Positions 23,143 through 24,480 of a stretch of 64,000 bases of DNA are shown in pieces. A program made the translations under genes and the position numbers. The DNA comes from Alistipes sp. An66. GTDB lineage: Bacteria; Bacteroidota; Bacteroidia; Bacteroidales; Rikenellaceae. The number at the start of each line of letters is the position of its first letter. Position 1 is the stretch's first letter. The stretch spans positions 310,001 to 374,000 of the forward strand of contig NZ_NFHT01000001.1 of assembly GCF_002161445.1 (NCBI RefSeq), in the 5' to 3' direction. The notes under the pieces were generated by a model. The model was given only the letters and a program-made list of their open reading frames with translations, was not told where the DNA came from and did not search any database.

Positions 23143-23502
23143 TTATTGCCGGGTGTAGGTGTCTCCGTCGAAGATGAGTGTATTTCCGCTGACGCTGGCC
23201 GACGCGGAGTAGACGTCGCCGTCGGAGTAGTACTGGGTCAGAATCGAGCCGTTGTAGGTATAGGTCCCGGTGTAGGTGTCGGAGTCGGATCCCAGCGATC
23301 CGGTGTAGGTTGCCGTTTCGATAAAGGATCCGTTGGCATTGAGGACCAACGTGATCACTTCGTAGGAGCTGTAACAGGCCCACGTGCCGACAATGGCCGG
23401 GTCGATCTTCTTCTTGTCATCGTCGTCGTCCTTGCACGAGGTGAAGTTGCACAGACTGGCTGCTGCAACGAACATCAGCAGAAAGAGTTTGAATTGTTTC
23501 AT
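23143..23502 (-). CDS. Small lipocalin-like lipoprotein
   Basis: A 119-residue lipoprotein. The signal peptide MKQFKLFLLMFVAAASL ends in the lipobox-like FTSC, followed by an acidic and lysine stretch (KDDDDDKKK), a pattern common for surface-exposed Bacteroidota lipoproteins. The rest is short beta strands starting with IVGTWACYS, as in the lipocalin-like DUF families, with Thr/Tyr-rich strands (TYTGTYTYNGS). Function unknown. A TAATTTTG box at 23533-23540 on the minus strand is a likely -7 element. Confidence 0.8.
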   Translation of the reverse strand: MKQFKLFLLMFVAAASLCNFTSCKDDDDDKKKIDPAIVGTWACYSSYEVITLVLNANGSFIETATYTGSLGSDSDTYTGTYTYNGSILTQYYSDGDVYSASASVSGNTLIFDGDTYTRQ

Positions 23503-23601: not shown

Positions 23602-23877
23602 TTATTGACGTTCGGAATCGTCATTCCGGCTGTTTTCTCGGGGCTCGTGCGGCGTTGTTGCGGTTGGTATCTCTTTTTCGAGGGAGCTGCGGTAGTACTG
23701 GAAGAAGTCGTGGTGCAGGGCCTCCGAGATGCGCAGTAACATTTCGGTATCGATGCTTTGCCGCTTGAAGATGTCGTAGATGTTGGTTCGTTCGCAGAAT
23801 AGTTTCTTGGCGAGCCAACTCACCGAACGCTCCTGCCTGCGGAACTCCTTTTCGATCAAATTTCCGATGTGTATCAT
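23602..23877 (-). CDS. Small helix-turn-helix DNA-binding protein
   Basis: A 91-residue protein with an XRE-like HTH: IGNLIEKEFRRQERSVSWLAKKL, then FCERTNIYDIFKRQSIDTEMLLRISEALHHDFF. The tail of 20 residues is polar and probably disordered. The start at 23877 was chosen because the HTH begins directly after it; an open frame continues upstream to 24021 but encodes Cys/Arg-rich sequence without pattern. The ATG lies at the edge of a hairpin described separately. Such small regulators in Bacteroidota are often of unknown target. Confidence 0.75.
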   Translation of the reverse strand: MIHIGNLIEKEFRRQERSVSWLAKKLFCERTNIYDIFKRQSIDTEMLLRISEALHHDFFQYYRSSLEKEIPTATTPHEPRENSRNDDSERQ

Positions 23878-23927
23878 ACCTCTGCCGACGAAAAAAGCGC
23901 GGGATTCAAAGCCCACGTCAGAGGTAT
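23876..23927 (-). promoter_or_regulatory. Structured 5' leader: terminator-like hairpin inside an RBS-sequestering stem
   Basis: In the mRNA sense, ATACCTCTG (23927-23919) is perfectly complementary to CAGAGGTAT (23884-23876), whose last two bases belong to the ATG of the HTH gene. Between them an inner stem CGTGGG / CCCGCG (23917-23912 and 23903-23898, one G-U pair, 8-base loop) is followed by C and six T. The inner hairpin looks like an intrinsic terminator, and the outer stem would hide the purine-rich AGAGG before the start codon. The two cannot use shared bases in full at the same time near the base, so a switch is possible. Inference from pairing only. Confidence 0.5.
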
Positions 23928-24092
23928 TGGACGACCTTGTAATGGGACAAAGGAAATGCCCGCGCCGGAAACGGCACAAGCACCAACCCTCATTCTCCAT
24001 TACAATCGTGAAAGTGTCCAATTTTCTGACGTAAGAAGAAAAGCCGATGCGCTTTGGTTCAATCTGTCGACGGCCCGTCTGAACCGTCCGTA

Positions 24093-24123
24093 CAAAGATA
24101 ATGGATATATTTCAAAGAATCAA
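24093..24123 (-). promoter_or_regulatory. Promoter upstream of the HTH gene leader
   Basis: On the minus strand TTG (about 24121-24123) and TATCTTTG (24093-24100) are separated by 20 bases. The transcript would start near 24086 and carry a leader of about 210 bases before the HTH ATG. Other than the hairpin, I see nothing coding in 23878-24210. Confidence 0.7.
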
Positions 24124-24213
24124 TTGCCCGGATTCGGAATTGGCTCCGTTTATCCGGGTCCGGTCCGGTCGGTGACGGCCGGGGATTCATGACGTGGGAC
24201 GCACCGAAAGGAA

Positions 24214-24252
24214 AAAAGGGTGTCTGCGGTTGCCGGACACCCTCTTTTGTGT
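24214..24252. terminator. Hairpin near the DUF4924 3' region
   Basis: GGGTGTCTGCGG and CCGGACACCC pair with a TTG loop; the stem is preceded by AAAAAA and followed by CTCTTTTG, so it can work on both strands. It is about 235 bases beyond the DUF4924 stop and is the likely end of that transcript, with the purine-rich repeats lying between. Confidence 0.75.
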
Positions 24253-24259
24253 TTCGAAG

Positions 24260-24475
24260 TATTGTTTTTGATCTCCTCTTTCCTTCCTTTCCTTCCTCTC
24301 CTCTCTTCCTTTCTTCTCCTCTGCCCTCTCTCCCTCCGGTTTGTGCTTCCGGGGACGCTTCATCCTATCTATCCTCTCTCTCTTTTTTCTCACTCACACA
24401 CTCTCTTTCTCTCTTTCTCTCTTTCTCCCTTTCCCTTTTCTCCCCTCTCTCCCCTCTCTCTCTCTTCCCCCCCCC
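24260..24475 (-). repeat. GA-rich low-complexity tract with G9 after DUF4924
   Basis: On the minus strand, six bases after the DUF4924 stop there is a run of nine G (24467-24475), then more than 150 bases of GAGAGAGGGG- and GAGAAAGA-type repeats, continuing as AGGAAG repeats. It is almost purely purine on the coding strand. Confidence 0.9.
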
Positions 24476-24480
24476 ACCGG

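Follow-up and report, generated by a model that had tools for sequence, protein, structure and literature searches.

A conserved structured RNA of Bacteroidia 5' leaders, one copy of which precedes a small HTH gene of Alistipes

The leader of a small HTH gene in Alistipes sp. An66 contains a member of an RNA family without an Rfam match, a conserved 5'-leader RNA of the Bacteroidia. The gene lies in a stretch of 64,000 nucleotides (contig NZ_NFHT01000001.1, positions 310,001 to 374,000; hereafter the window, whose coordinates are used throughout), and positions 24055-23891 of its minus strand are almost certainly one copy of a dispersed, conserved structured RNA of ~165 nt. The Bacteroidota are a dominant phylum of the gut, and few of their regulatory RNAs are understood. 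Should the leader prove regulatory, its occurrence in 153 of 180 genomes sampled from the genus, many copies of it standing before surface proteins, would make it a major layer of control over what is displayed to host and phage. Its covariation supplies exact compensatory mutations, and the tie to a single small HTH family makes for a simple model operon.

The HTH leader and its covarying architecture

An earlier note on this DNA, made from the letters and a list of open reading frames, had proposed a promoter at 24093-24123 with a leader of about 210 bases. Both were found: TTG-20 nt-TATCTTTG reads as a good Bacteroidetes promoter, and ~209 nt separate the predicted transcription start, near 24086, from the HTH ATG at 23877 (minus strand). 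The gene is indeed preceded by a conserved structured leader that has a promoter of its own as well as a terminator-like hairpin and U-run, and related leaders covary strongly. The parts of the locus are the following.

24093..24123, minus: promoter, TTG (24123-24121), 20 nt and the -7 element TATCTTTG (24100-24093), from the sequence
24069..24088, minus: 5' hairpin GACGGUUC-AGAC-GGGCCGUC near the predicted transcript start, from the fold
23891..24055, minus: conserved structured RNA element, ~165 nt, matched by the whole covariance model
24040..24055, minus: 5' hairpin S:S2, AAAGC-GCAUCG-GCUUU, from the alignment of 103 copies
24025..24032, minus: P1 5' strand ACGUCAGA, partner 23922-23915, from the same alignment
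24016..24021, minus: P2 5' strand UUGGAC, partner 23932-23927, from the same alignment
23997..24005, minus: P3 5' strand UUGUAAUGG, partner 23945-23937, from the same alignment
23972..23984, minus: P4 5' strand (A), from the same alignment and the A:B covariation
23955..23967, minus: P4 3' strand (B), from complementarity tests
23937..23945, minus: P3 3' strand CCAUUACAA, from the 103-copy alignment
23927..23932, minus: P2 3' strand GUCCAA, from the 103-copy alignment
23915..23922, minus: P1 3' strand UCUGACGU, overlapping part of the 9-bp stem of the earlier note, from the 103-copy alignment
23891..23917, minus: terminator-like hairpin CGUGGG (23917-23912)/CCCGCG (23903-23898), then C and U6 (23896-23891), that is D:C and the U-run, from the sequence
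23876..23927, minus: 9-bp inverted repeat AUACCUCUG (23927-23919)/CAGAGGUAU (23884-23876), from the sequence
23602..23877, minus: small HTH gene, 91 aa, Cro/C1-like by the weak Pfam matches of its relatives
23143..23502, minus: small lipoprotein gene (Lipocalin_4), next after the HTH gene

Folding of the whole leader gave -89.9 kcal/mol (z = -5.0), and none of 200 shuffles was as stable. The nine perfect pairs between 23927-23919 and 23884-23876, which take in AGAGG and the first two bases of the AUG, are present in the sequence, as is the nested hairpin at 23917-23891 followed by C and six U. The minimum-energy fold, far more stable than the shuffles, does without the 9-bp stem: forcing it gave -80.1 instead of -88.4 kcal/mol, a cost of 8.3, and its pair probability was 0. 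A long hairpin at 24032-23915, missed earlier, takes the 5' arm of this stem into another helix. By chance, a perfect 9-bp repeat turned up in 4 of 2000 sequences when the 3' 85 nt were shuffled and in 65 of 2000 when the whole leader was; it is thus locally unlikely and yet unremarkable across the 227-nt stretch. When orthologous HTH leaders were compared, the leader structure covaried and the stem was absent, CAGAGGUAU being missing before the start codon in those of the closest HTH leaders that were examined at the 3' end; the repeat has thus been kept neither as an RNA switch nor as a DNA operator for the HTH protein, the two roles suggested for it. Since the stem is not conserved and is energetically disfavoured, its competition with the terminator, as the note had imagined it, is not the switch, and the alternative pairs that do covary sit elsewhere (5' strand S, with S2 or T as partner, and P4 strand B, which has A or C). 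The suggestion of a possible sensing domain within 23930-24085 was reasonable, as most of the conserved domain falls there.

The window element scored 149.3 bits (E 2.1e-28) with the covariance model R1 and 140.3 bits with the broader model R2. The aligned copies have in common the 5' hairpin AAAGCGCAUCGGCUUU and a long arm whose strands vary but stay complementary; their apical hairpin is conserved, and another hairpin, with a U-run, lies at the 3' end. RNAalifold found two-sided changes at 18 of the 34 predicted pairs in the first alignment of copies. Across 103 model-aligned copies 92.1% of pair cells were paired and 43 of 45 pairs had two-sided changes, with a covariation score of 0.649 against 0.07-0.09 for slid structures. 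All five pairs of the S:S2 hairpin showed two-sided changes (88% of cells paired over the 103 sequences), as did all pairs of P1 (8/8; 98.4%), P2 (7/7; 99.7%) and P3 (10/10; 92%), the 5' strand of P3 being variable in sequence and conserved in pairing. The weakest helix is the 3' (terminator-like) hairpin P5, in which 68% of cells pair when all aligned copies are counted and which pairs poorly outside Alistipes. Conserved internal-loop nucleotides sit in this covarying frame. Summed over helices P1-P4, G-U cells far outnumbered A-C cells (294 vs 42), which favours an RNA made from this strand over a DNA element. A peptide encoded by the conserved arm (the ...LDTF...SSNT... frame of two copies) was considered and rejected, since the indels between copies are not multiples of three.

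Two further features lie upstream of the leader promoter. One is a G/A-rich low-complexity stretch of ~250 nt (GAGAGAAAGAG..., 24230-24480), between the end of the upstream gene (24481) and the promoter region; the other is a strong intrinsic-terminator-like hairpin on the minus strand (GGGTGTCCGG...GACACCC-TTTTTT, 24210-24245), which probably ends the upstream phosphate-transporter operon ahead of the leader promoter.

Distribution, genomic position and downstream genes

A nucleotide search with the window leader found a second copy in its own genome and, in the genus, 23 copies spread over 11 of 81 genomes, 10 of them among the matches listed in one genome. Model R1 matched 153 of 180 Alistipes genomes (66 of the 70 good ones), 17 of 22 genera in the family sample, and 75 of 295 genomes, or 54 of 184 genera, in the order sample; R2 matched 42 of 156 genera in the class sample. 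Copy numbers from these group searches are lower bounds, a limited number of candidates having been scored per genome. At E 0.01 there were 22 matches in the genome of the window itself. Two of these are antisense echoes of palindromic copies and the weakest few are doubtful, and the genome carries roughly 18-20 copies.

An exact 22-mer of the low-GC type has hosts that include Alistipes, Bacteroides nordii, B. congonensis, Dysgonomonas, Odoribacter and Candidatus Symbiothrix. Several metagenome-assembled genomes of Candidatus Symbiothrix and Dysgonamonadaceae hold many exact matches each (L174, L186, L205, L236 and others), often near contig ends, as if beside long repetitive genes. The same type of 22-mer led to one copy in a contig of a viral collection (IMGVR_UViG_3300029995_000342; L291:12313-12486); a blastn search of the window leader against phages gave no match.

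The element normally stands as a 5' leader, a reading of its position in which we have high confidence. Among 155 loci the next gene was co-directional in 131, opposite in 20 and absent in four, at a median distance of 54 nt from the element (mostly 40-75), and the upstream gene lay on either strand (78/67). In 129 of 153 family members the promoter motif TAnnTTTG stood no more than 140 nt 5' of the element, vs 3 of 149 control stretches. Short distance to a co-directional gene and a place downstream of a promoter are what a leader shows, and these data suggest that the element probably regulates the downstream gene in cis. Gene calls followed a simple longest-ORF rule and may be wrong in single cases.

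The downstream genes have no single function in common. A simple hydrophobicity criterion classed 92 of the 117 next genes as signal-like or exported, vs 67 of 199 other ORFs of the same loci, and the Pfam domains of the next genes include sorting-tail, BspA-type LRR, Sel1, WG-repeat, BACON and similar ones; several Alistipes copies stand before Sel1/TPR genes. Elsewhere in the class, outside Bacteroidales, copies lie directly before N6/N4 DNA methylases (L346, L347), one of them with a type III modification-subunit domain, and another copy in the class precedes a response regulator gene. A Flavo-1 RNA of Rfam (63 bits, L340:248-323) was seen ~380 nt upstream of one copy.

The HTH family, defined by alignment A4, was present in 27 of 180 genomes of the genus; its members have weak Cro/C1-type Pfam matches, and the protein had no match in the PDB at E 0.01. 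Directly upstream of the HTH gene the RNA model matched at 28 of 30 loci, some of them with leaders beyond the reach of nucleotide search, and distant HTH homologues in two other families are also preceded by the RNA (E 1.6e-5; the last is marginal, at E 0.015). At many orthologous loci a signal-peptide or lipoprotein gene follows ~80-150 nt further on. The HTH protein was rejected as a trans-regulator of the whole RNA family, the gene being found in 27 and the RNA in 153 of the same 180 genomes.

Alternative pairings and candidate mechanisms

Alternative pairs were tested in three strata by comparing the complementarity within each sequence with that to shuffled and nearest-relative partners. 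Because the sequences are related, the shuffle z-scores given here overstate significance, and the nearest-neighbour t is only 2.5-4.8 for most alternative pairs. The P4 strands A and B covary, and B (GCGUGGGC, the P4 3' strand) was also complementary to C (UCCCACGC, the strand ahead of the U-run), more so than shuffles in each of the three strata (z 3.4-7.2) and more so than nearest relatives (t = 3.9); in the window, GCGCGGG of B (23965-23959) is complementary to CCCGCGC of C (23903-23897). C can besides pair with a GGGAC-like segment (E) further downstream, significantly in the two low-GC strata (z 5.8-5.9) and not in the high-GC Alistipes stratum, the group of the window, and its local hairpin with D covaries in that high-GC stratum (z 5.9) and weakly elsewhere. 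At the other end, the 5' strand S covaries both with S2, in the hairpin, and with T (CGCUUU) at the 3' end; the U-run may serve as 3' strand of an S:T helix instead. B:C would be a pseudoknot with P1-P3, and a forced pseudoknot-free version in the window was 21 kcal/mol worse. The partners are mutually exclusive, as a switch requires, though the tests correct only in part for phylogeny.

The mechanism we favour, with a confidence that stops somewhat short of even, is an attenuator-type switch in which strand exchange would set read-through at the U-run. The features that bear on attenuation are the hairpin and U-run of the window, a D:C hairpin that is strong only in high-GC Alistipes, and the competing B:C and S:T pairs that covary. 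The S:S2/S:T and A:B/B:C alternatives would be the switch states that set transcription past the U-run into the gene, with a short terminated RNA of ~200 nt as the default product, and in the window the switch would govern the HTH-lipoprotein operon. The signal could come from a ribosome at a mini-ORF, from a protein that binds P4, or from a metabolite; the first of these, by a weaker argument, might supply or tune it in many leaders. A wider and more tentative proposal is that the element represents a new class of multi-state leader RNAs in much of the Bacteroidia, with many copies in some genomes, in which strand exchange read at the U-run would jointly control accessory surface-protein, restriction-modification and HTH genes, coupled to a mini-ORF in many leaders and present as stand-alone sRNA genes in some Alistipes.

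The stand-alone copies bear on the most serious competitor, a discrete trans-acting sRNA with promoter and terminator, acting for example by protein binding through the conserved P4, the downstream gene being reached by read-through and its position being secondary. A few Alistipes genomes (G071, G111, G115, G195, G199) have many copies without a following gene, so that cis control is not universal; sRNA-like copies of this kind were recorded at L025-L031, L043, L046, L116, L117, L164-L167 and L170. Homology among them often spans from -22 to -28 (promoter) to +163 to +170 (U-run), so that promoter, RNA and U-run can act as one unit, and in these genomes the RNA looks like a free sRNA of ~175 nt. 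Many copies per genome and an S:T covariation that joins 5' and 3' ends, as in a free RNA, point the same way. An sRNA has difficulty, however, in explaining the fixed spacing of 40-75 nt to a co-directional gene and the enrichment of secreted proteins, and at HTH loci the pair of RNA and gene is retained across genera; we consider it a rather unlikely account of the family.

A narrower version of attenuation would make a start-stop mini-ORF the sensor of a ribosome-coupled attenuator, by the logic of tetQ in Bacteroides, whose leader peptide is ~3 residues long. Such a mini-ORF was present in 87 of 138 leaders vs 29 (maximum 41) in dinucleotide shuffles. Its position is conserved, the ATG lying mostly 20-33 nt after the TTTG of the -7 element; in leaders of the GYYTATG type (nearly all GCCTATG) an in-frame stop follows within three codons in 62 of 68, and TAA, TAG and TGA are all used, at variable distance. 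About a third of the tested leaders lack it, however, including the window copy, in which the 5' hairpin 24069..24088 occupies its place (similar short 5' hairpins were seen by eye in other high-GC Alistipes copies), with 0-2 sense codons there is little to sense, and no codon is conserved; this sensor is improbable. Less probable again is a metabolite riboswitch with P1-P4 as aptamer and C and the U-run as expression platform: the conserved internal-loop nucleotides in a covarying frame and the competing pairs near the U-run would suit it, but the copies are unusually many, their targets unrelated, and the helix long and near-continuous with few conserved unpaired nucleotides. An element acting as DNA (a REP/MITE repeat family, an integron attC-like hairpin or an operator) might be expected from palindromic, dispersed copies with weak antisense model matches, but the excess of G-U over A-C in P1-P4 on the transcribed strand, arms that differ and yet covary, and the promoter and gene spacing make it very improbable. 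The REP/MITE repeat was rejected, with arms that vary and covary and G-U at 294 vs A-C at 42 in P1-P4.

Relation to known systems

In the scanned sets (Alistipes, Bacteroidales and wider Bacteroidia) Rfam 15 gave no hit over the element even at E values of up to 0.5-5, and literature searches on structured RNAs and on tetQ leaders turned up no account of it, with HMP2_4205 as a possible exception. Type III toxin-antitoxin leaders have the order promoter, structured RNA, terminator and gene, which is common to both; here, by contrast, there are no tandem RNA repeats and the downstream genes are not of one nuclease family. We know of no homologous long hairpin in the leader of tetQ. In Bacteroides this gene is reported to be subject to translational attenuation, with a leader RNA structure that controls the downstream gene (PMC5418344); the attenuator of CTnDOT resembles the present element in this control, and differs in belonging to a single antibiotic-resistance operon.

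HMP2_4205 is a 132-bp palindromic Bacteroidetes candidate with a predicted terminator, often found near TPR genes, from a microbiome survey (Fremin and Bhatt, 2021; PMC8040213). The likeness lies in the palindrome, the phylum, the terminator and the TPR genes, several Alistipes copies here preceding Sel1/TPR genes. The parts of its description that were compared, a length and one association, say nothing of cis geometry, of a mini-ORF, of an HTH link or of alternative pairing; by this description only, the two could be the same RNA. FopS and GibS of Bacteroides are likewise multi-copy Bacteroidales RNAs with canonical promoters (PMC11697453). FopS, a free sRNA of ~65-70 nt with an R1' seed that base-pairs with susC mRNAs, was rejected as the same RNA on account of its length (~165 nt here) and its different described seed and consensus (PMC11697453).

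DUF805 and DUF805b (Rfam RF03081, RF02914) are cis-regulatory motifs, separate from the element and shorter, which lie between element and gene in one locus: a DUF805b match below threshold and a DUF805 match stand there in tandem (L064:1700-1858), after the element and before a membrane-protein gene. DUF805b-like matches were also seen at two other loci (L145, L148).
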